Shown here in pieces: positions 1-29,453 of a stretch of 43,805 bases of DNA. The stretch's first letter is position 1. Every line of letters begins with the position of its first letter. The notes beneath the pieces are model-generated. The model was not told the DNA's origin. It saw only the letters and a program-made list of their open reading frames with translations, and did not search any database. This DNA is from Patescibacteria group bacterium (GTDB taxonomy: Bacteria > Patescibacteriota > Minisyncoccia > Minisyncoccales > JANBVM01): assembly GCA_024239015.1 (NCBI GenBank), contig JANBVM010000004.1, forward strand, positions 1-43,805, read 5' to 3'. A program made the position numbers and the translations under genes.

Positions 1-693
1 ATTTCAAAGGCTCTTGAGGGATCAGATATGGTTTTTATCGCTGGAGGCTTAGGAGGAGGAACTGGTTCTGGAGCAGCTCCAGTTGTAGCTAAAATAGCCA
101 TGGACTTGGGAGCTTTAACCGTTGCCATAGTGACTCTTCCTTTTTCTTTTGAAGGTTCTTATAGAAGAAGAGTTGCTAAACAAAGCAAAGATCTTTTGGA
201 GAAAAACATTGATGCTCTATTGGTTATCAAGAATGACAGACTTCTTGAGGGAATTGAACCCAAAACCTCTTTATTAAATGCTTTTTGGGTCTGCGATGAT
301 GTTTTAAGGGAAGCAGTTAGAGGGATTTCTGATTTAGTTGTACTTCCTGGAATAGTAAATGTTGATTTTGCTGATGTAAGATCTATTCTCAAGGGGGCAG
401 GCACTGCTCTCTTTGGAGTAGGCAGGGCTCAGGGCGAAAGAAGAGCCGGAGAAGCAGTAAGGCTGGCTCTTAGTTCTCCATTATTGGACGTGACTCCAAA
501 AGGGGCAAAAGGGGTTTTGTTTAATATCTCAGGTGGAGACATTTCTCTTTCTGAGATTGAAGAGGTTGGCAGTATTATTACCAAAGAAATTAATCCCAAA
601 GCCAAGGTAATTTTTGGAGCAGTTCAGGATGAAAAGCTGAAAAAAGGAGAAATAAAAGTAAGTGTAATTGTCACTGGTTTTAAAAAGTCTTAG
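1..693 (+). CDS. ftsZ: Cell division protein FtsZ (C-terminal part, 5' cut by window)
   Basis: FtsZ is the tubulin-like GTPase that forms the division ring in the cytoplasm. The reading frame is open from base 1, so the N-terminus lies outside the window. The tubulin/FtsZ signature GGLGGGTGSGAAP sits at the start of the visible part, followed by the T7 region and the C-terminal FtsZ domain (VSVIVTGF at the end). The protein stops right after the globular domain (…TGFKKS). The variable linker and the conserved C-terminal peptide that usually binds FtsA or ZipA are absent. The next gene is 257 bases away behind its own promoter and riboswitch, so FtsZ ends its operon here. The family call is certain; the missing tail is read directly from the sequence. 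Confidence 0.97.
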   Translation: MSKALEGSDMVFIAGGLGGGTGSGAAPVVAKIAMDLGALTVAIVTLPFSFEGSYRRRVAKQSKDLLEKNIDALLVIKNDRLLEGIEPKTSLLNAFWVCDDVLREAVRGISDLVVLPGIVNVDFADVRSILKGAGTALFGVGRAQGERRAGEAVRLALSSPLLDVTPKGAKGVLFNISGGDISLSEIEEVGSIITKEINPKAKVIFGAVQDEKLKKGEIKVSVIVTGFKKS

Positions 694-702
694 CTTTTCC
701 AC

Positions 703-731
703 TTGACCGACTGATCGAGAAACGATATTCT
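703..731 (+). promoter_or_regulatory. Candidate sigma-70 promoter of the B12 operon
   Basis: TTGACC (703-708), a 17-base spacer and TATTCT (726-731) lie just after ftsZ and upstream of the riboswitch aptamer. A second -10-like TATAAT at 736-741 has no good -35 partner. The exact start site is inferred. Confidence 0.5.
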
Positions 732-749
732 TAAATATAATAATAAGTA

Positions 750-935
750 CTATAAAACAAGCGGGGAAACAGGTGAAAATCCTGTGCTGTGCCGCAACTG
801 TAATCTCTTCCTCTTTTTTTCAAAGAGGAGGGTAAGCCAGAATGCCGCTAGAAATCTTTTAACGCCTACCTTCGAGCAAAGGAGAGAGTGTTAATCTTTT
901 TTTGAAATAAAGATTACTTCTGTCCCACTCGAAGT
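750..935 (+). ncRNA. Cobalamin (B12) riboswitch leader
   Basis: The leader carries the conserved blocks of the AdoCbl/cobalamin riboswitch class in the right order. GGGGAAACAGGTGAAAATCC starts at 763, GCTGTGCCGCAACTGTAAT follows, then a variable hairpin (CTCTTCCTC…GAGGAGGG, about 805-832), then the B12-box-like GTAAGCCAGAATGCCGC at 832-848. An expression platform follows. CTTCGAG (870-876) is perfectly complementary to CTCGAAG (928-934). That second segment overlaps the terminator hairpin, so antiterminator and terminator exclude each other. A local hairpin TAATCTTT/AAAGATTA (892-899/909-916) would bring the two arms together. It should control the four-gene operon starting at 950. The class assignment rests on reading the consensus by eye. 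Confidence 0.88.
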
Positions 936-945
936 GGGATTTTTG
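923..945 (+). terminator. Attenuator terminator of the B12 riboswitch
   Basis: TCCCACT (923-929), a CGA loop and AGTGGGA (933-939) form a 7-bp stem followed by TTTTT. It ends only about five bases before the ATG at 950. The only weak ribosome-binding sequence (AGTGGGA) lies in the 3' arm, so the same hairpin could stop transcription and hide the initiation site. Confidence 0.75.
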
Positions 946-949
946 ATTT

Positions 950-2767
950 ATGAAAAAGAAAATTTTTATTACTTCTTTAGCCATAATCTTACTTGCCATA
1001 CTTGGATTAACTAATTTTCCCAAAATTTACTCACAAAGCCAATCAGAAATTGATAAAACAGTAAGTTATCTTAAATCCCAACCTCAAACAGCCTGGAGCA
1101 CTATAGCACTAGCTGGGGCTGGAGATAGTGGTATTGATTTGAACCATTTAAGGTCTGTTCCTTCTGATCAAAAATCTACCACTGCTTACGCCAAATATAT
1201 CTTAGCTTTAGTGGCAGCTGGGAATAATCCTACTAATTTTGGAGACGAAAATTACGTAGAAAAATTAAAGAGTTATTATCAAGAGGACCAATTTGGAAAC
1301 ACTAATTTAATTAACGATGATATCTGGGCAATATTAGCTTTAGGTTCAGTCGGTCAAGAGAATCTATCAATAGTCCAAAAATCTAAAGATTATGTTTTGA
1401 ACCACCAAAATCTGGATGGGGGGTGGAGCTATGACATTTCTATTTCTTCTTCTGACACCAATGACACTGCAGCTGCTATTATGGCTTTACTTGAAGCTGG
1501 GGTTTCCGACTCATCTTTGGCTATTCAAAATGCTGTTTCTTATCTTAAATCAGGACAAAACTCAGACGGAGGTTTTCCTTATACTTCAGGTTCAATTTCT
1601 GATTCTTGTTCTGATTCATGGGTGATTTCATCTATCTATAAACTAGGACAAGTCCCTACAGACTTAAATTGGACAAAAGATGGGAAAAACGCTCTGGACC
1701 ACCTTAAATCTTTACAAGACGAAGATGGTGGTTCTTGGTGGCAGTCTACTGGAGACAACAAATTCTGTAGTGCTTATGCTTTAACTGCTTTGTTAGGAAA
1801 ACACTATCCAGCTGGAACTATTTATAATAGTCATCGTCTAAGAATCGAGGGTTTATATAGTACTGTTTGCGAAATCGATACTAATGGAGGAACTGCTATG
1901 GATTTGATAATCTCAGGATCAAAAATATGTGGCTATAATTACTCAATCATTGAATATCCTGGACTAGGTCTATATCTAGCAGAGCTAGGAGGCGAGACCA
2001 GCTGGATGTATCTGGTAGACAATATTCCTCCAACGATAGGAGCAGATAATTATTATTTAGAGATTGGAGACGAAACTTTATGGCATTCCGGACAATGGCT
2101 GGAGAAGGGTTGGAATCTGACTAAAGTAGAATTAATTGAGAGCGGCGATTTAGTTAAAATTCAAGTCAAATATTACGATTCTACTACTGGTGATTGGCAT
2201 AGCCTAGAAGTAGGAGAGCTAAAGGTAGAGATTGGCTCTTCGGAACTAACAACTAATGATTTAGGCCAAATAGAATTCTCTTTAGCTAGCTTAGAAGATG
2301 GCTTTTATGATGTATTCGTTGAGACTCAAATTATAAATGAGGAAGGTTATATTAGGAGTGAAAAAGAAAGCTTAAAAATAGGTACAGTTCCACCAGAGCA
2401 TGGAGTGAGTTTAAAAGTAGATGTTGAAAGATTAAAAGTTCAGACTGCTGGACTACAAACTACCATTAGCTTTTCTATAAGCCCAGACATATTGGACTTT
2501 GGAAAGTTAAAGCCAGGGGAAAGTTCAACCAAAGATTTAACTATTGATAATCAAGACACCGGAATTTATTTAGAAACAGAAGTAAGTGGAGCTAGTATTT
2601 TTCAGGAAAACTTAGATATCGATGGAGAATTCTGGCAAGTTTTCTCATCTGGGGTAGAGGCGGGAGAAACTAAGACTTTACCTATTAAAATAATCATTCC
2701 CAAAAACTATAGTGGGAATTTTGGCTTACTAGAAGGAGAGCTTACTTTTTGGGCTATTAAGAAATGA
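950..2767 (+). CDS. Transcobalamin/intrinsic-factor-like secreted protein (prenyltransferase-type alpha barrel + DUF4430)
   Basis: Likely an extracytoplasmic cobalamin-binding protein. It has an N-terminal signal or anchor segment (residues 5-28). Helical repeats of the prenyltransferase/squalene-cyclase alpha/alpha type follow (about 40-285; repeat motifs LDGGWSYD, SDGGFPY, EDGGSWWQ). Next comes a DUF4430-like beta domain (about 293-385; SWMYLVDNIPP…GADNYYLEIGDETLW), then one or two Ig-like beta domains (about 390-600). An alpha/alpha barrel joined to a DUF4430-type domain is the arrangement of animal intrinsic factor and transcobalamin, in which B12 sits between the two. The gene is first in an operon behind a cobalamin riboswitch, which supports that role independently. 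It overlaps the next gene by ATGA. B12 binding is inferred, not shown. Confidence 0.85.
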   Translation: MKKKIFITSLAIILLAILGLTNFPKIYSQSQSEIDKTVSYLKSQPQTAWSTIALAGAGDSGIDLNHLRSVPSDQKSTTAYAKYILALVAAGNNPTNFGDENYVEKLKSYYQEDQFGNTNLINDDIWAILALGSVGQENLSIVQKSKDYVLNHQNLDGGWSYDISISSSDTNDTAAAIMALLEAGVSDSSLAIQNAVSYLKSGQNSDGGFPYTSGSISDSCSDSWVISSIYKLGQVPTDLNWTKDGKNALDHLKSLQDEDGGSWWQSTGDNKFCSAYALTALLGKHYPAGTIYNSHRLRIEGLYSTVCEIDTNGGTAMDLIISGSKICGYNYSIIEYPGLGLYLAELGGETSWMYLVDNIPPTIGADNYYLEIGDETLWHSGQWLEKGWNLTKVELIESGDLVKIQVKYYDSTTGDWHSLEVGELKVEIGSSELTTNDLGQIEFSLASLEDGFYDVFVETQIINEEGYIRSEKESLKIGTVPPEHGVSLKVDVERLKVQTAGLQTTISFSISPDILDFGKLKPGESSTKDLTIDNQDTGIYLETEVSGASIFQENLDIDGEFWQVFSSGVEAGETKTLPIKIIIPKNYSGNFGLLEGELTFWAIKK

Positions 2768-3333
2768 AAAAAAATCTATCAATCTTAATAATAACCTTTC
2801 TTTTATCAGCTGCTCTTGTCCAAGCTGTAGCAGTTAAGGTTGAGCCTTCTGAATTAAGAATTGAAACCAATTTCAAAACTCATTTTAAAGAAGAAATCAT
2901 CGTAGAAAATCCAGATAATAACGTAGCCCTATATGAAGTTTATCTGGATAATTTTTCAGATTGGATTAAGGTAGAACCAGAAAGTTTTATTCTAGAAAGC
3001 GAAGATTCACAAACAGTAATTTTAGAAATTGATAGTAAAGAAAAAGGTGTTTTTTCAACCACCATTTCAGTTGTAGCTAAACCTTTGTCTGGAAGGAAAT
3101 TCAAGGCAAACTCTGGGGTAAAGATTCCCTTAGAAGTTAGGGTCGTTGAAGGAGAGAAGGAAACCCTTTTAGCTACCGTTTATAGAAACGGAACAAACCT
3201 TGTTTATAACTCAAAGAATCTAATTAATGTTTTGAGTTTAATCTTAATCTTAGTTCTAGGGATTTGGATAACAAATAAAAAGATGAAATCAAAAGACAAA
3301 GACCATTATAACTTCCCAGCTATAAAATTCTAA
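2764..3333 (+). CDS. Membrane-anchored Ig-like surface protein of the B12 operon
   Basis: The protein has a signal peptide (about 1-22, ending near QAVA), one extracytoplasmic beta-sandwich domain of the NEW1/COG1470 kind (about 23-130), a transmembrane helix at 157-171 and a short basic cytoplasmic tail. The domain motifs are KVEPSELRI, WIKVEPESFILESEDSQTV and FSTTISVVA. Translation is coupled to the preceding gene by the ATGA overlap. No catalytic motif is visible. It most likely holds or spaces the secreted binding protein at the cell surface; the preceding protein ends in a similar beta domain (DFGKLKPGESSTKDLTI). The specific function is not known. Confidence 0.7.
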   Translation: MKKNLSILIITFLLSAALVQAVAVKVEPSELRIETNFKTHFKEEIIVENPDNNVALYEVYLDNFSDWIKVEPESFILESEDSQTVILEIDSKEKGVFSTTISVVAKPLSGRKFKANSGVKIPLEVRVVEGEKETLLATVYRNGTNLVYNSKNLINVLSLILILVLGIWITNKKMKSKDKDHYNFPAIKF

Positions 3334-3337
3334 AAAG

Positions 3338-3775
3338 GTGACAAAAAGCACAAAGATAATAATTGGCACAGGGACACTTTTTATCTTAACTGTTCTATTG
3401 GTGTTTGGTTTTTCAGATTTTGATTTGAAAGAGGGTATAAAAACCCAAATTGAGGAAGGACGCTTAGTAGGTAAAGTAAATTTAGTTATTGATTTTGGAG
3501 AGGGAGAGATCGAAACCTTTGAAAGAGAAACAAAAGAAACAATGACAGCCTTTGATTTATTAAAAGAAGGAACAGAAGAGTTAAGTTTATCTCTAGAAAC
3601 TAAGAACTATGATATAGGAGTATTTATTGAAACAATCGGGGATAAGAAAAATGGTCAGGATGAAAAATATTGGCTATATTATATCAATAATCAACCTCCT
3701 CCTGTTGCAGCTGATAAAAGAGGAATAGAACCAGGAGATAAGGTTGAGTTTAGGTTTGAGAAACCACCTTTTTAA
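3338..3775 (+). CDS. Stand-alone DUF4430 protein with N-terminal membrane anchor
   Basis: It starts with GTG at 3338, four bases after the preceding stop. Residues 7-26 are a membrane anchor or signal segment. Residues 45-145 match the DUF4430 / transcobalamin C-terminal pattern: TAFDLLKEG, IGVFIETIG, YWLYYINNQPPPVAADK and the terminal GDKVEFRF. This is the same fold as the second domain of the 605-residue protein two genes upstream, here alone and tethered to the membrane. It could be a second half-site for B12 or a hand-over module to the transporter downstream. In Gram-positive bacteria DUF4430 proteins are often found beside cobalamin uptake genes. The family call is strong; the function is inferred. 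Confidence 0.82.
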   Translation: MTKSTKIIIGTGTLFILTVLLVFGFSDFDLKEGIKTQIEEGRLVGKVNLVIDFGEGEIETFERETKETMTAFDLLKEGTEELSLSLETKNYDIGVFIETIGDKKNGQDEKYWLYYINNQPPPVAADKRGIEPGDKVEFRFEKPPF

Positions 3776-3777
3776 TT

Positions 3778-4350
3778 ATGAAGATTTTTAAGGATCAAGA
3801 AGAATTCTTCCAAATTTTTATTGCTTTAGTCTTTATCTTGATTGGGGTCTTAATGAGATTAGTGCCTCATCCTCCCAATTTTGCCCCCATTTTAGCTATT
3901 GCTCTCTTTGGCGGGACCTACCTTTCTAAAAAAATAGCTCTTACTTTACCGATAATAGCTATGATAATTTCAGATATTTTTATCGGTTTTTACAATCCCT
4001 TGGTGATGGCATCTGTTTACATAAGTTTCATTCTAACTGCAGTTTTAGGGCTTTGGTTAAAAAACAATAAAAGATGGTATGCAGTAAGTGGAAGCGCCCT
4101 TCTATCTGCTTTTTTGTTTTTCTTAATTACTAATTTTGCTGTGTGGGCTTTTGGCCACATGTATTCAAGAGACTTTTTTGGCCTGATGCAATCTTATTTT
4201 ATGGCTATACCCTTTTTTAAGAACACTTTTTTATCGAATTTATTCTACGTGATCGTATTCTTTGGCGCCTATGAAGCGGTCTTATTCTGGGTCAAAATAA
4301 AATTTAAAATTCCTCAAGTTGCTGTTTTGAGAAATGATTCGCGACAATAA
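3778..4350 (+). CDS. ECF-transporter S-component-like membrane protein (DUF6580-like)
   Basis: This 190-residue polytopic membrane protein has about five or six hydrophobic segments (residues 12-28, 35-50, 52-70, 75-92, 100-128, 145-172). The N-terminal block RLVPHPPNFAPILAIALFGG and the SDIFIGFYNPL motif are typical of the DUF6580 family. That family resembles the substrate-binding S subunits of energy-coupling-factor transporters. It is last in the riboswitch operon, two bases after the DUF4430 gene, and is followed by a terminator. The context suggests a cobalamin-specific S component sharing an energizing module coded elsewhere; no EcfA or EcfT is in the window. An alternative is an uptake channel unrelated to ECF. 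Confidence 0.7.
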   Translation: MKIFKDQEEFFQIFIALVFILIGVLMRLVPHPPNFAPILAIALFGGTYLSKKIALTLPIIAMIISDIFIGFYNPLVMASVYISFILTAVLGLWLKNNKRWYAVSGSALLSAFLFFLITNFAVWAFGHMYSRDFFGLMQSYFMAIPFFKNTFLSNLFYVIVFFGAYEAVLFWVKIKFKIPQVAVLRNDSRQ

Positions 4351-4352
4351 AA

Positions 4353-4386
4353 AAGCGAGATGTGAGGTGACATCCGGCTTATTTTT
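4353..4386. terminator. Bidirectional terminator after the B12 operon
   Basis: AAGC-ga-GATGT / ACATC-cg-GCTT is a symmetric hairpin (4353-4380). It is flanked by an A-run on the left and ATTTTT on the right, so it can end both the B12 operon and the small minus-strand gene next to it. Confidence 0.7.
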
Positions 4387-4606
4387 ATTCATCTGAAAGG
4401 GCTTCTATTTCTCTTCCAAGGGATGGATTAGTTATATCCACTTGCTCTGCAACTTCTACAGTAAATTTGTAAAGATCTTTTATGATCTAGACGAGATTAC
4501 CTTTTTTTGAATTACCTGGATTAACCGCTTTCAACTGCTCAACGCTTTCTTCTAATTCTTCTACTCTTTCTTCTAATTCTTTTACTCTGTCAACTAGTTT
4601 TTCCAC
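4385..4606 (-). pseudogene. Small coiled-coil protein gene interrupted by an in-frame TAG
   Basis: The stretch between the B12 operon and comEC holds a minus-strand frame starting at GTG 4606-4604. A GAGG ribosome site lies nine bases upstream. It codes for a heptad-rich helix (VEKLVDRVKELEERVEEL…) up to a TAG at 4489-4487 (codon 40). Without changing frame it continues for 33 more protein-like codons (IIKDLYKFTVEVAEQVDI… to LSDE) and stops at TAA 4387-4385. The whole would be 73 residues. The simplest reading is a point nonsense mutation; a 39-residue product or readthrough are alternatives. The family is not recognised. Confidence 0.5.
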
Positions 4607-4660: not shown

Positions 4661-6133
4661 ATGACAAAATCTAAAATCTTATTATACCTTTGTCTTTCTT
4701 TTATTGGAGGAGTTTTCTTAAGTTCAGTATTTAAAACATCTCAGCCAAGTATGCTGGGATTTTTGATTTTAAGTACAATTTTCATTTCGGTCTTCTGGCG
4801 ATATAAAAAGATGGTGATTTTTGGCTTCTGTTTATTTCTTCTTTCAGCTGGAGTTTGGCGTCATCAGACAGCTGAGCTGAGAATTAACAACAACGGATTA
4901 AGGAAACATATAGGAGAGGAGATTTCTCTAACCGGGTTTATTTTTTCACAACCGAGTATTGGAGAAAAAAGCACCAAACTATTAGTCCAAGCTGAGGATT
5001 TAAATGGAAAGGAAATAAAAGAAAAGATTTTAGTTAGGACTTGGAAATATCCTCAATATGAATATGGAGATAGGTTAATAATTATTGGACTGCTGGAAGA
5101 ACCAGAGGTCTTCGAAGGTTTTAATTATAGGGAGTTTTTAGCAAAAGATAACATTTATGCCTTAATGTATTTCCCGAAAATAGAACTAGTTGATAAAGGG
5201 TCTGGGAGTTTAGTAACGAGATATCTTTTTTCTTTCAAAAGTGGGCTAAGCAAGAGTTTGAATAAAATAATGCCTTCTCCCCAATCTGGACTCTTGGAGG
5301 GACTGATGTTTGGAGACGAAGATAATATTTCAACAGAATGGAAAGAAAAATTTAATCTCACTGGTACTCGTCATATTACAGCTGTCTCTGGAATGAATAC
5401 TACGATTATTTCTACCTTAGTTTTGGGTTTTCTTTTGTCTTTGGGTTTTTGGAGACGCCAGGCCTTTTATCTTTCTGTGATTTTTATATTTTTCTATATT
5501 CTAATGATAGGCGCTCCAGCCTCAGCTATCAGGGCTGGTATCATGGGAGCTCTTTTTCTAACGGCCCAGCATCTTGGCAGGGTTTCAAGTGGTTTTAGAA
5601 TAATTGTTTTTGCAGGCGCCATAATGCTGTTTTTAAACCCTTTGCTTTTAAAATCAGATGTTGGGTTTCAGCTGTCTTTTTTAGCGACATTGGGCTTAGT
5701 TTTGTTACAACCAATTCTCTCAAGTTTATTTAAAAAAATTCCAAATATAATTGAACTTAGATATACTTTGTCAGCTACCTTAGCTGCTCAATTTTTTGCT
5801 CTTCCGATTTTAATTTATAACTTCGGGCAAGTTCCTTTAATAGGGCCTTTAGCTAATGTCCTTATTGTCCCTCTTTTGGTAGTGATTACAATTTTAGGCT
5901 TTATTTTTTCTTTCTTAGGAATGATTCTTTATCCTCTTGGCCAAATCCTTTCTTTTCCAGCCTGGTTTCTTCTGACTTATATCTTTAAAGTAATTGATTT
6001 TTCTTCAAAAATTCCCCATGCAACCTTAAGCCTTGAAAATATTCCCTGGATTTTTATTTTTACCTCTTATTTATTTTTAGGAGTTGTGGTCTGGCGCCTA
6101 CAAGAGAAAGATAGACTGAAACTTTTGCAGTAA
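4661..6133 (+). CDS. comEC: ComEC/Rec2-family DNA-uptake channel, short form
   Basis: ComEC forms the inner-membrane channel for single-stranded DNA during natural transformation. The 490-residue protein has N-terminal membrane helices (1-65), a soluble DUF4131-like OB-type segment (about 80-160; EEISLTGFIFSQPS) and the Rec2/ComEC core. The core has the signature GLMFGDEDNIS…LTGTRHITAVSGMN (about 215-245) and many helices to residue 480. The C-terminal metallo-beta-lactamase-like domain of the roughly 750-residue Gram-positive proteins is absent, so any nuclease function must lie elsewhere. It is a single gene behind its own AT-rich upstream region. Confidence 0.9.
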   Translation: MTKSKILLYLCLSFIGGVFLSSVFKTSQPSMLGFLILSTIFISVFWRYKKMVIFGFCLFLLSAGVWRHQTAELRINNNGLRKHIGEEISLTGFIFSQPSIGEKSTKLLVQAEDLNGKEIKEKILVRTWKYPQYEYGDRLIIIGLLEEPEVFEGFNYREFLAKDNIYALMYFPKIELVDKGSGSLVTRYLFSFKSGLSKSLNKIMPSPQSGLLEGLMFGDEDNISTEWKEKFNLTGTRHITAVSGMNTTIISTLVLGFLLSLGFWRRQAFYLSVIFIFFYILMIGAPASAIRAGIMGALFLTAQHLGRVSSGFRIIVFAGAIMLFLNPLLLKSDVGFQLSFLATLGLVLLQPILSSLFKKIPNIIELRYTLSATLAAQFFALPILIYNFGQVPLIGPLANVLIVPLLVVITILGFIFSFLGMILYPLGQILSFPAWFLLTYIFKVIDFSSKIPHATLSLENIPWIFIFTSYLFLGVVVWRLQEKDRLKLLQ

Positions 6134-23789: not shown

Positions 23790-24293
23790 ATGGAAAGAAA
23801 AAAAAGATTATTTAGTAAAATATACGACAAATACATAGATAAAATATATGGTTTTACCTTCTTTAAGGTAAACTCTCAAGAAATAGCTGAGGATTTGACT
23901 TCTGAGGCTTTCTCAAGAACATGGGCTGTTTTTAGAAAAAAAGACAAAGAGATTGATAATATTCAAGCATTTTTGTATAAGACCGCCAAAAATTTAGTAA
24001 TTGATCACTATCGGCAAAAAGGGAAAACTCAGGTAGTATCGACTGAAGATATCTCTATTGCCGATCCAAGACATAATTTGGAAGAAGAAGCTATATTAAA
24101 TTCAGACGTTGATAATATAAAAGAAATCTTGTATACCTTAAAAGAAGACTATCAGAACGTTATTATCTGGTATTATCTGGATGACCTATCAATTTCTGAG
24201 ATATCTAATGTATTAGGTAGGACAAAAGAGACTACTCGTGTCCTACTACACAGAGCTCTGAATGCATTAAAGGTTAAAATTAAAGAGAATTGA
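23790..24293 (+). CDS. ECF-type RNA polymerase sigma factor
   Basis: This 167-residue sigma-70-family factor of the extracytoplasmic-function group has region 2 (about 8-80; IDKIYGFTFFKVNSQEIAEDLTSEAFSRTW, then AFLYKTAKNLVIDHYR) and region 4 (about 110-165; LKEDYQNVIIWYYLDDLSISEISNVLGRTKETTRVLLHRALNAL). Regions 1 and 3 are absent. It should direct transcription of an envelope-stress or surface regulon. The following gene codes for a membrane DUF5667 protein, a common partner. Confidence 0.92.
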   Translation: MERKKRLFSKIYDKYIDKIYGFTFFKVNSQEIAEDLTSEAFSRTWAVFRKKDKEIDNIQAFLYKTAKNLVIDHYRQKGKTQVVSTEDISIADPRHNLEEEAILNSDVDNIKEILYTLKEDYQNVIIWYYLDDLSISEISNVLGRTKETTRVLLHRALNALKVKIKEN

Positions 24294-25337: not shown

Positions 25338-28300
25338 ATGACTATAAAAATGTCTATAACGAAGAAAATTATTTCGATTGCTACTGTTGTTGGTATGTTG
25401 GCCCCCATTGCCCCTGCTTTGGCTATAACAGCAGCTGATCTTCAGGTACAAATTGATGCTTTATTAGCTCAATTGTCCTCATTACAGGCTCAGTTGACTA
25501 CACTTGAAGGGGGAGAAACAACTCCAACTGTTAGTGGTTGTACAATTACTTCTTTTGATAGAAGCCTAAAAGTAGGCTCGTCAGGAGAAGATGTTAAATG
25601 TCTACAGATTATCTTGAATTCAGCCGCCGATACCCAGGTAGCTGCAACAGGCGTAGGATCTTCTGGTAGTGAAACTACCTACTTTGGTCCTTTAACCCAA
25701 GCTGCAGCAATTAAATTCCAGGAAAAATACGCCAGTGAAGTTTTAGCTTCTTGGGGATTAACTACTGGAACTGGTTTCATTGGCTCAACAAGTAGAACTA
25801 AGCTGAATAGTCTCTTGGGCGCAGGAGTTCCTGGAACACCTGGAACACCTGGCGAAGTCGGCACTACAGCCGCTGTTTCTTTAGCTGCTGATACTGCAGT
25901 CGCAGGTGCTGTGGCTAAAAACTCTCAAGATGTACCTTTCACCAAGATTAGATTTTCAGCTGGTGCCACTGCTTATACCGTTACCCAGATTGTTGTTGCT
26001 CGAGGCGGAGTTTCAGCCGATGCTGATATTTCATCTATAAAGTTATATGATGGAACAGCCCAGCTAGGTTCAACTCAGGCCTTAAACACTAACACCCACA
26101 AAGCAACCTTTGGAAGCCTTTCATGGGAAATTCCTTCCTACACCGTTAAATACCTAAGTATTCTTGGAAGCATTGCTGCTTCACCTACAGTTGGAGATGT
26201 TATCCAGTTAGGAATTTCTGCTGCTTCAGACATTAGTGCAACGGTAAGTCCTTCAGGAACTTTCCCAATCATGGGAAACTTGAAGACAGTTGCTGGAATT
26301 TCAGTTGGTCGACTTGATGTTGACAAACAGGCTACTCCAGCTACCACCACTGTTCTATCTGGAGCTACTGACCAAGAAGTTGCTTGTTGGAAGTTTACGG
26401 CTGACAACACCGAAGGCTTCGACGTTAATTCAATTAAGGTTTCCCATGTTGGTTCTGCTGCTAGAGCTGACCTAAGCAATCTAGTTCTTAAAGTTTCAGG
26501 AACTCAGATTGGTTCAACCATGCTCAGTTTAGATGCTTCTAACCAGGTAATGTTTGACCTATCTGCTTCTCCTTTGAACATTAGAACTGGATCAGCTAAG
26601 ACAGTTTGTTCTTACACTGATGTTGCTTCTGGAATTTCGACCTCAAGGACAGCAATCTTTGAGCTTACCCAAGCTACAAATATAGTGGCTTACGGTGCTA
26701 ATTCCGGAGGAATAGTGACAGTTACTATTACCTCTGCTACTTTTGTTAAGCAGACCGGTAATACCATGACCATTGGTCAGGGTACTTTAACCGTTGCTTT
26801 GGATGCTGCTCAAAATCCTGCCGCTCAGAATTATGTTAAGGGAACCGCAAACAGATTAATTACTGCTGTTAAGTTCTCAACTGGTGCAAGAGAGGGAGTT
26901 AGGATGGTAAAACTTGTATTCACCCTAGGTGGAACAGGTTCTGCTACCGATATCTCTAATGTTACCCTTTGGGACGGAACCACTCAGATTGCAGGTCCTG
27001 CCTCAGTTATTGGTACTAGCGTCACCTTTGGTGCTAACACTATTGGTTACGATGTAACTGGACTATTTGATGTGCTGAAATCAGCTAATACTACTGTTTT
27101 AGTTAAAGCTGATGTTCCAACCGGGGCTGATTCTACAAAGACAGTAAGCCTGAGCTTATCTGCAGCATCTGATATTTCTGCCGATGGCCTAGGATCACAA
27201 TACGACTTGCCTTCTTCAGCTATTACTGGAACAGCTACGGGTAACGCCCACTCTGTGACGGCTAATGGTACTTTATCAGTGGCTTTGGCTGCTGATACTC
27301 CACCTGCTCAGACTTATGTGAAGGGATCAACCGCAAAATCATTCACTAAGATTAACTTTACTGCAGGTTCTGGAGAGGACATGACTGTGACCTCTATTAC
27401 AGTTAGATGTTATGTAGGATCTGGTACTGGATCCACTTGTGCTTCAGGAGACGTCACCAACGTTAAGTTGTTGAAGTCAGACGGATCACAGTTTGGATCA
27501 GTTGTTACCAGCCCAACAGCTTCTGCTGGATTTAGCGGTACTTTCACAGTTACAGCTGCTCAGACCGGATCCATTACCGTAGTAGCTGATATTCCTACCA
27601 CTGCCGCCGCTGCCTCTGTTCACTTTGACCTTCCGGGAGCTGGAACAGTTGCCAGTGATATTACTTCAACTGGTGCTTCTTCTGCAGCTGATATTACAGA
27701 AACAGGTTCTGCCACTGGTAAATTAGTAACTATTGGTTCAGGATCTTTGACTATTGCTGCAGCCGCAGTCCCAGCCGATCAGACCCAGATTATTGGAGCC
27801 ACTCAAATTCCTATTGTTGGTTTAGTACTAACAGCTGGAACAGGTGAGGATGTTAGGATAACTAAGTTAAAGTTCACCAGGAGTGTTCTTACTTCTAGTG
27901 AAGGTTCTTCAACTGACTTGTCTAACATTGCAATTTACGATGGATCTACCAGACTAACTGCTAATAAGCCTTGGGATGGCACTGACACCGAAGTTACATT
28001 TACAGCCTCTGATTTCTTGAACTTATTGGGGATTGATATTGTCAAAGGACAGCAAAAGACGGTTACCGTCAATGCTGATGTTCCTTCTACCGCAGTCAAT
28101 CTACACGTAGTTGCTATAGGTATAGCCACCTCTACTGATCCTGGTAGTACTACTACTAGTGACGTTACGATTGTTGGGCTTTCTTCAAATACAAGTCCAG
28201 CTCCTACCGTAACAAAGGCCAATACGGCTTTGGAGGGAGCTAACTACAGCTCAAATGGTGATGGTAATGCTTATTATCTGACTCTTAACACTAAGGGTAC

Positions 28301-29453
28301 TTTAACAGTAGCTTCAGCTGCTGATACCCCTGGTCAGGCAATTCAGTCTGTAGGGTCACAAGGTTATGCATCTCCGCCAACTGTTTCATTCTATAAGGCT
28401 TCATTCAGCCCAACTCTTGAGGCTAGTGATGTTAAGTCAATTACTGTAGAAAGATCAGGTGGTCGTGATTCTGACTTTAGTTCAATTACTATTTGGGATG
28501 GAACGACTCAGTTAGGTACAGCTCAGTCCCTAGTTAATGCTTCAACTACATTTAGTTTTGTAGCTGGAAGTTACTGGAGAATTGACGCTGTTAAAAACCT
28601 AACAGTCAAAGGTGTACTGAACGGTATTAGGCTTAGCACTGGTTCTGGATCTGAAACAGGTGATGCTCCTCAGCTTGGTGTTGATAACATCACAGCCGAA
28701 GGTGTGTCTTCTGGTTTGTCACCAACTGGCGCTGGACAAATTGACCTACTCGGTAATGCTCAACACCTGAGACAGTCTCAACCTACTATAGCTTTGGCCT
28801 CACCCGTAGATACAACTATAGGTGGAACCAAGCAGCTTATTAGGTGGACGGTGACAGCTGATGGAACTGACGATATTGCTTGGAAGAAAGTTATCCTTGA
28901 TGTGTCAGGAGCAATAACCGTTGCAACCGTTAGCAATACAGTTGGTTGTATTAGTGGCGACACAGGTTGTACTGGAAAGACAGATGGTATATACACGTCT
29001 ACTAGTAGTGACATAGGAGTATCTCCTACCCAGTTAATTGCTACCAGCTCAATGAAAATCTATGATGTTGGATCTGGCAGCGCAATTACAGCTACTACTA
29101 CTGATACTGCCTGGACCGTTGATCAATCTACTTCACCTGGAACAGCTAGAGTCGCATTTGTAGCCGCCGCAGAACAAACAGTTGCTGCAGGCACTACAAA
29201 GACTTACTACCTAGAAGGTGCTTTCTTACAAGGTGGTGCTGCCGGTGACAGTATAACGACTAGAATTAATACCAGGCCTACCTCAGCTACTAGTGATACC
29301 TATGTAACAGTTGCAGGCACTACAGGAACCTTTATCTGGTCAGATAAATCAGGAGCTAGTTCAGGTAACGCACACTCTTCATTAACTGCTGACTGGACTC
29401 ACGACTACAAAGTTTCTGGCTTGCCAACTTCTGTAAATACTTTGACCAAGTAG
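25338..29453 (+). CDS. Giant S-layer-like surface protein with N-terminal peptidoglycan-binding domain
   Basis: The 1371-residue exported protein has a signal peptide (about 1-30, cut near PALA), a short coiled coil (DLQVQIDALLAQLSSLQAQL, about 33-53) and a PG_binding_1 domain (about 68-158; LKVGSSGEDVKCLQIILN, YFGPLTQAAAIKFQEKY). A Gly-Thr-Pro hinge follows (PGTPGTPGE). More than 1,100 residues of repeated Ser/Thr-rich beta domains come next, with recurring motifs LAADTP-AQ-YVKG, FTAGSGEDM-VTSI and ADVP-TA. It resembles the surface-array proteins of candidate-phyla bacteria: wall-bound at one end and self-assembling by the rest. It is single, behind a structured leader, with a very strong terminator. 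ATG 25350 is an alternative start. Confidence 0.85.
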   Translation: MTIKMSITKKIISIATVVGMLAPIAPALAITAADLQVQIDALLAQLSSLQAQLTTLEGGETTPTVSGCTITSFDRSLKVGSSGEDVKCLQIILNSAADTQVAATGVGSSGSETTYFGPLTQAAAIKFQEKYASEVLASWGLTTGTGFIGSTSRTKLNSLLGAGVPGTPGTPGEVGTTAAVSLAADTAVAGAVAKNSQDVPFTKIRFSAGATAYTVTQIVVARGGVSADADISSIKLYDGTAQLGSTQALNTNTHKATFGSLSWEIPSYTVKYLSILGSIAASPTVGDVIQLGISAASDISATVSPSGTFPIMGNLKTVAGISVGRLDVDKQATPATTTVLSGATDQEVACWKFTADNTEGFDVNSIKVSHVGSAARADLSNLVLKVSGTQIGSTMLSLDASNQVMFDLSASPLNIRTGSAKTVCSYTDVASGISTSRTAIFELTQATNIVAYGANSGGIVTVTITSATFVKQTGNTMTIGQGTLTVALDAAQNPAAQNYVKGTANRLITAVKFSTGAREGVRMVKLVFTLGGTGSATDISNVTLWDGTTQIAGPASVIGTSVTFGANTIGYDVTGLFDVLKSANTTVLVKADVPTGADSTKTVSLSLSAASDISADGLGSQYDLPSSAITGTATGNAHSVTANGTLSVALAADTPPAQTYVKGSTAKSFTKINFTAGSGEDMTVTSITVRCYVGSGTGSTCASGDVTNVKLLKSDGSQFGSVVTSPTASAGFSGTFTVTAAQTGSITVVADIPTTAAAASVHFDLPGAGTVASDITSTGASSAADITETGSATGKLVTIGSGSLTIAAAAVPADQTQIIGATQIPIVGLVLTAGTGEDVRITKLKFTRSVLTSSEGSSTDLSNIAIYDGSTRLTANKPWDGTDTEVTFTASDFLNLLGIDIVKGQQKTVTVNADVPSTAVNLHVVAIGIATSTDPGSTTTSDVTIVGLSSNTSPAPTVTKANTALEGANYSSNGDGNAYYLTLNTKGTLTVASAADTPGQAIQSVGSQGYASPPTVSFYKASFSPTLEASDVKSITVERSGGRDSDFSSITIWDGTTQLGTAQSLVNASTTFSFVAGSYWRIDAVKNLTVKGVLNGIRLSTGSGSETGDAPQLGVDNITAEGVSSGLSPTGAGQIDLLGNAQHLRQSQPTIALASPVDTTIGGTKQLIRWTVTADGTDDIAWKKVILDVSGAITVATVSNTVGCISGDTGCTGKTDGIYTSTSSDIGVSPTQLIATSSMKIYDVGSGSAITATTTDTAWTVDQSTSPGTARVAFVAAAEQTVAAGTTKTYYLEGAFLQGGAAGDSITTRINTRPTSATSDTYVTVAGTTGTFIWSDKSGASSGNAHSSLTADWTHDYKVSGLPTSVNTLTK

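Follow-up and report, generated by a model that had tools for sequence, protein, structure and literature searches.

A cobalamin-riboswitch operon in a Patescibacteria group bacterium with a predicted transcobalamin-like carrier and a putative solitary importer

The B12 carriers of animals, transcobalamin, intrinsic factor and haptocorrin, are secreted proteins in which an alpha/alpha toroid is followed by a DUF4430-type beta domain. In the BtuG/BtuB/BtuFCD uptake system, a surface binder hands the corrinoid to a membrane importer. Lactobacillus ECF-CbrT relies on a B12-specific S component of the energy-coupling factor (ECF) type, and the proteobacterial protein BtuM has an S-component fold, acts alone and supports uptake of B12 in E. 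coli (PMC6072759). Here, we analyse 43,805 nucleotides of DNA from a Patescibacteria group bacterium (contig JANBVM010000004.1 of assembly GCA_024239015.1; this whole stretch is called the window below), which carry four genes behind an adenosylcobalamin (AdoCbl) riboswitch. We consider it probable that these genes form an operon for the acquisition of B12 (corrinoid) that is turned off by AdoCbl, combines a transcobalamin-like carrier with a solitary importer and has a class II ribonucleotide reductase (RNR) as its likely consumer. A preliminary description, made from the letters of the window, had already proposed that a riboswitch controls transcobalamin-like capture of B12, with an S-component-like protein in the membrane. 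This core is supported by the Rfam score of the leader, by the predicted fold of the carrier and by the matches of the putative importer to CbrT and BtuM, as well as by the genetic linkage of the importer's family, DUF6580, to nrdJ, corrinoid adenosyltransferase and B12-binding radical S-adenosylmethionine (SAM) genes in relatives.

The operon resembles each of these systems in part. Similar to the animal proteins, its predicted carrier is secreted and places a toroid before a DUF4430 domain. In contrast to them, it gives no match to their family, PF01122, even at an E-value of 10, shares only ~13-17% identity with them, has an extra C-terminal immunoglobulin (Ig)-like domain and a different domain orientation in its model, and is encoded in a bacterial operon under a riboswitch. 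The DUF6580 membrane protein shares with BtuM the S-component fold and a genome in which no EcfT was found. Unlike BtuM, it has no invariant cysteine, is paired with an anchored DUF4430 protein and a carrier, and belongs to a host of the candidate phyla radiation (CPR) rather than to proteobacteria. Its sequence profile matches CbrT, while the search for EcfT sets it apart from ECF-CbrT, as neither this genome nor any DUF6580-bearing relative yielded one. As in the BtuG/BtuB/BtuFCD system, a surface corrinoid binder would pass its ligand to a membrane importer, although binder and importer have other folds in that system.

Candidate-phyla bacteria are regarded as unable to make B12 and as reliant on neighbours for it, and the operon would offer a concrete uptake route. 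One report states of a Parcubacterium that it has to get B12 from other sources (PMC5220378). That human intrinsic factor and transcobalamin share their two-domain architecture with proteins of B12-controlled bacterial operons in many lineages bears on the origin of the animal carriers, and DUF6580, a family of unknown function, gains a specific predicted function. New in this analysis are the location of the operon between ftsZ and comEC, at the site where relatives keep nrdDG, and the strict co-occurrence of two Ig-like domains described below; the former may be the genomic trace of an RNR change tied to the gain of a vitamin importer. A literature search covering DUF6580, bacterial transcobalamin-like proteins and CPR cobalamin riboswitches returned nothing relevant in the collection searched, and earlier notice of bacterial relatives, for example in Actinobacteria, is possible.

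Riboswitch, operon and distribution

An Rfam search of the window with cmscan returned a single match, an AdoCbl riboswitch aptamer at positions 747-854 of the + strand (RF01689 AdoCbl-II, 42.6 bits against a gathering score of 36.5, E 5e-7). The RF00174 Cobalamin model fits a longer span, 714-867, at 36.3 bits (cut-off 31.5), and with both covariance models above their curated cut-offs the leader belongs to Rfam clan CL00101. The cobalamin riboswitch read earlier from the letters is thereby borne out; it is also the sole match of its kind in the 1.03-Mb genome. Folding of the leader revealed a candidate expression platform at 865-940 (+ strand), in which 865-869 and 871-876 pair with 928-938 to give an antiterminator, the longer of two rival pairings. 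The other is an intrinsic terminator at 922-940, followed by a T run, which overlaps the antiterminator pairing and lies between aptamer and start codon. This layout would correspond to the usual transcriptional OFF switch, and the RNA anatomy suggests that the operon would be turned off by AdoCbl: when AdoCbl is scarce, the leader would form the antiterminator and the operon would be transcribed, while plentiful AdoCbl would allow the 922-940 terminator to form.

Behind the leader follow the four genes that the preliminary description had listed, with products of 605, 189, 145 and 190 amino acids (aa). All are on the + strand and tightly packed, with neighbours overlapping or lying apart by a few bases, and a hairpin with a T-rich tail directly past the last gene (4346-4389, + strand; -13.0 kcal/mol, z -2.6) is likely the terminator of the operon. 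The flanking genes are ftsZ (window 1-693) and comEC (4661-6133).

We compared the operon with 60 genomes of its order, its own included, and scanned 85,000 prokaryote species, each represented by one genome. Within the order, DUF4430 occurs in 15 of the 60 genomes, every time together with DUF6580 (present in 17 genomes; p 3e-12) and usually adjoining it, and each of the seven cobalamin riboswitches found there precedes a carrier, DUF4430 or DUF6580 gene. The wider scan yielded 54 loci, a few of them from genomes already in the 60-genome set. Most come from candidate phyla (Nealson-, Doudna-, Lipton-, Komeili-, Giovannoni-, Wildermuth-, Jackson-, Uhrbacteria and others), joined by Dehalococcoidia, Actinomycetes and single contigs of Woesearchaeota and Deltaproteobacteria; the last two could reflect transfer or misbinning. 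The same carrier and anchored Ig architecture is seen on both of these contigs (L120 2531-4974 for the Woesearchaeon and L133 3042-5573 for the deltaproteobacterium). A cobalamin riboswitch scored above the cut-off in 20 of 46 scanned loci, each time upstream on the coding strand, and in 16 of these 20 a terminator follows the aptamer. With the window included, 17 of 21 riboswitch loci have a terminator no more than 200 bases past the aptamer, versus 0.8 +/- 0.9 in dinucleotide shuffles. The full set of carrier, Ig, DUF4430 and DUF6580 genes recurs in six loci (L097, L099, L100, L107, L115 and L149) and in genome G022. Chance association is excluded because the riboswitch and the genes are conserved together in dozens of genomes.

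The secreted carrier and its surface anchors

The first gene (950-2767, + strand) encodes a 605-aa protein composed of a signal peptide, an alpha/alpha toroid (aa ~30-290), a DUF4430/transcobalamin-like beta domain (aa ~291-385), a beta-rich linker and a C-terminal Ig-like domain (aa ~500-605). Pfam assigns the toroid to SQHop_cyclase_C (35.4 bits) and scores the DUF4430 domain at 19.0 bits, below the PF14478 cut-off of 23.8. The DUF4430 call, weak by Pfam alone, is retained because the fold supports it and because the orthologues pass the cut-off at 30-40 bits, several of them with the toroid above its cut-off as well. The NCBIfam model NF053823 (SCO2321 family membrane protein) also matches the protein in part, best along the toroid, at 85.8 bits and thus far under its cut-off of 300. 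An AlphaFold model built on an alignment of 29 relatives (pLDDT 84.9, pTM 0.57) was compared with PDB by Foldseek. The 14 top-ranked entries are without exception animal B12 carriers, namely haptocorrin, transcobalamin or intrinsic factor (E 3e-10 to 3e-8, probability 1.00, ~420 columns spanning both domains), with haptocorrin as the single best. The pairing of a helical-repeat toroid with a DUF4430-type domain, and its likeness to transcobalamin, thus hold up in Pfam, orthologues and predicted fold. The model points to a secreted transcobalamin-like corrinoid carrier, which would hold the corrinoid clamped between toroid and DUF4430-type domain in the manner of transcobalamin and intrinsic factor.

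Two anchored proteins are encoded next. The second gene (2764-3333, + strand) specifies a 189-aa Ig-like protein with an N-terminal signal and a C-terminal membrane helix, and the third (3338-3775, + strand, GTG start) a 145-aa membrane-anchored protein whose stand-alone DUF4430 domain, as previously proposed, is clear in Pfam (PF14478, 46.9 bits). We propose that B12 bound by the 605-aa protein may be handed over in two steps, to the anchored DUF4430 protein and from there to the DUF6580 importer, which would work alone like BtuM. Across the carrier loci, the C-terminal Ig domain of the carrier and an anchored Ig protein directly downstream occur together in 26 of 26 cases, and among the loci whose carrier has no such domain, a few of which are cut by contig ends, none has an anchored Ig protein. 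This perfect co-occurrence suggests an Ig-Ig dock, in which the C-terminal domain would pair with the 189-aa protein and keep the carrier at the surface.

Other loci may use different anchors. In genome G037 the carrier is divided between two neighbouring genes (L029 9972-11315 and 8799-9941): the first joins the toroid to a type I dockerin (Dockerin_1, 31.8 bits), and the second encodes a membrane protein with DUF4430 at its end. The N-terminal 160 residues of this DUF4430 partner might form a cohesin-like domain, but Pfam finds no cohesin in it. An Adlerbacteria carrier (L139 2766-4058) has its toroid joined to a peptidoglycan-binding domain (PG_binding_1, 46.9 bits). Most simply, Ig-Ig, dockerin and peptidoglycan binding would be alternative docks keeping the toroid half near the anchored DUF4430 half and the importer. 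Taken further, the operon might represent a modular B12 uptake machine, widespread in candidate phyla, with interchangeable docks, a half-carrier and a BtuM-like importer, whose gain goes with a switch from class III to class II RNR; we put this wider proposal forward tentatively and hold it to be slightly more doubtful than not.

The DUF6580 importer and the B12 consumers

The last gene (3778-4350, + strand) encodes a 190-aa membrane protein of family DUF6580 (PF20221, 161.5 bits against a cut-off of 27). A profile built from 17 relatives matches one PDB chain only, 6fnp_A, at E 1.7e-6 and over nearly the whole length (positions 6-159). Entry 6FNP is the B12 transporter ECF-CbrT (PMC5997447), and its chain A, with 182 residues, appears to be the S component. 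The AlphaFold model (pLDDT 90.5, pTM 0.84) has BtuM with cyanocobalamin (8c7p) as its best fold match (TM-score 0.67/0.70, probability 1.00), followed by RibU. The S-component-like character expected for this protein is thereby upheld; the ECF module looked for as its partner did not turn up. EcfT/CbiQ (PF02361) was found neither in this genome nor in any of the 17 DUF6580 genomes (EcfA was not searched separately), and the DUF6580 protein is therefore probably a solitary, BtuM-like B12 importer. BtuM ligates cobalt through an invariant cysteine, Cys80 (PMC6072759), and alignments of 15 and 17 DUF6580 proteins contain no conserved cysteine. Conserved H31, D66 and Y81 of DUF6580 follow the same order as the BtuM pocket residues H28, D67 and Y85, a correspondence of order only and not of superposed structures.

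In relatives, DUF6580 is linked to B12-dependent enzymes. It lies in operons with AdoCbl-dependent class II RNR and enzymes for its cofactor in three genomes, as nrdJ-cobA-DUF6580 (G020), nrdR-nrdJ-pduO-DUF6580 (G058) and nrdR-nrdJ-DUF6580 (G012), where nrdR was named from its sequence, and near B12-binding radical SAM genes in five others (G024, G037, G044, G049 and G051). With the bacterium's own genome excluded, NrdJ or a PF02310 enzyme is present in 13 of 16 genomes with DUF6580 versus 9 of 43 without it (p 4e-5). G012, G016 and G058 contain NrdJ and no NrdD was found in them, so B12 should be essential to these three. The carrier loci reveal the same association, with nrdJ near the carrier in L121, L122, L132 and L149 (plus a partial nrdJ-like match in L144), cobA in L122 and pduO in L144 and L149.

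The site of the operon adds a further link to RNR. We compared the window with seven stretches from relatives (L214-L216, L240, L242, L243 and L028). Six genomes (G001, G002, G003, G005, G022 and G030) have the order ftsZ-nrdD-nrdG-comEC, in which nrdD and nrdG encode class III RNR and its activase, and a seventh (G019) has nrdD-nrdG-comEC with ftsZ beyond the contig end. In the window, nrdDG is absent and the riboswitch operon occupies exactly this site. G030 carries a DUF4430-DUF6580 pair directly after nrdD-nrdG, with a few more genes before comEC (L028 7725-11955); the adjoining class III RNR of this genome does not use B12.

The genome bin (G000; 92.5% complete) is mixed. It consists of a CPR part of ~568 kb with a GC content above 0.335, near 0.36 like the window, and ~460 kb of low-GC contigs (0.27-0.33) with archaeal-looking genes. 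This observation covers contigs C1, C2, C6, C9, C11, C12 and C24 (stretches L155-L158, L161, L164, L166, L167 and L179). The only radical SAM proteins and the only NrdD and NrdG found in the bin are on the low-GC part. We rejected this NrdD as proof of class III RNR in the cell, as it sits on an archaeal-looking contig and has ~21% identity to the CPR enzyme. Within the ~568 kb assembled as CPR, no RNR was found, while nearly all relatives have one; the RNR of this genome is therefore probably in the unassembled part. A class II enzyme is our best guess for it because the operon stands where relatives keep nrdDG, and such an enzyme would be the likely consumer of the imported B12. The class II RNR that the preliminary description had envisaged did not turn up in the NrdJ search of the sequenced part, and it stays plausible from the relatives and the locus swap.

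Rival readings and neighbouring genes

Several results weigh against a B12 acquisition operon as outlined above. Searches of the bin for NrdJ, PF02310 enzymes and the two adenosyltransferase families all came back empty. In the model of the 605-aa protein, the two domains are oriented differently from those of animal carriers (rmsd ~20 A over both, TM-score 0.28-0.31 by query length), which leaves the clamp geometry not established, and the DUF4430 profile reaches intrinsic factor at E 0.25 only. The Foldseek E-value for DUF6580 against BtuM is a mere 0.05. Finally, relatives contain a divergent DUF6580 (L036-L039), beside DUF4430 in G001, G005 and G021 and alone in G018, whose neighbours are rplK/nusG, dcd (dCTP deaminase), tmk (thymidylate kinase) and deoC, and this pair may carry something else. 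In three of these four genomes no B12 enzyme was found, and most of the divergent proteins are without the conserved H31, suggesting that ligands may differ within the family.

The question of ligand extends to the operon itself, which could be regulated by AdoCbl and yet prefer another corrinoid, such as cobinamide, pseudo-B12 or other cobamides. CPR bacteria inhabit communities where many cobamides circulate, and haptocorrin, the best fold match of the carrier, is a broad corrinoid binder. BtuM, which the importer resembles, also acts on cobinamide (PMC6072759). The sequences give nothing to tell corrinoids apart, however, and we regard this alternative as unlikely, albeit one to be taken seriously. 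If DUF6580 needs a motor and an EcfT/EcfA pair was overlooked, the locus would instead be a conventional ECF transporter for B12 to which surface proteins have been added. While such a motor might be missed in an incomplete and mixed bin, and the sole profile match of DUF6580, CbrT, does work with an ECF module, CbiQ/EcfT occurs in only 3 of 60 relatives, none of which bears DUF6580, and BtuM and BioY demonstrate that S-component folds are able to work alone (PMC6072759); we consider this option improbable.

The remaining alternatives concern the function of the carrier and of the operon as a whole. The DxDD motif is characteristic of class II cyclases. Both the top Pfam match of the 605-aa protein and its sequence-only PDB matches, which are cyclases, would fit a squalene-hopene-type or prenyltransferase-type enzyme in place of a carrier. 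The residues at the DxDD position, however, read D169-T-N-D172, with Asn171 where the catalytic acid should be; terpene cyclases and prenyltransferases all rank below the animal B12 carriers in the Foldseek search; and the protein is secreted, fused to DUF4430 and Ig domains and encoded under a B12 riboswitch. With the motif broken and the fold search pointing elsewhere, we rejected the enzyme reading, which is scarcely credible. The operon might also have been imported recently, or persist as a relic, in a lineage without any B12-dependent enzyme to feed. No known B12 enzyme or adenosyltransferase was recovered from the bin, and the close family members G001 and G005 have their different, divergent DUF4430-DUF6580 pair elsewhere. 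Against this, riboswitch and all four genes are intact, and the CPR part of the bin lacks any RNR, an enzyme that relatives have, so that it probably falls into the gap; we find an import or relic highly improbable.

A search of plasmids gave zero matches. We rejected contamination as the origin of the window contig, as it encodes a full-length, single-copy ClpC that is closest to the genome's own family (82%). Elsewhere in the window, positions 25338-29453 encode a secreted protein of 1371 aa that is rich in repeats, whose start may bind peptidoglycan and which could belong to an S-layer, and a sigma-factor-like gene lies upstream of it at 23790-24293.

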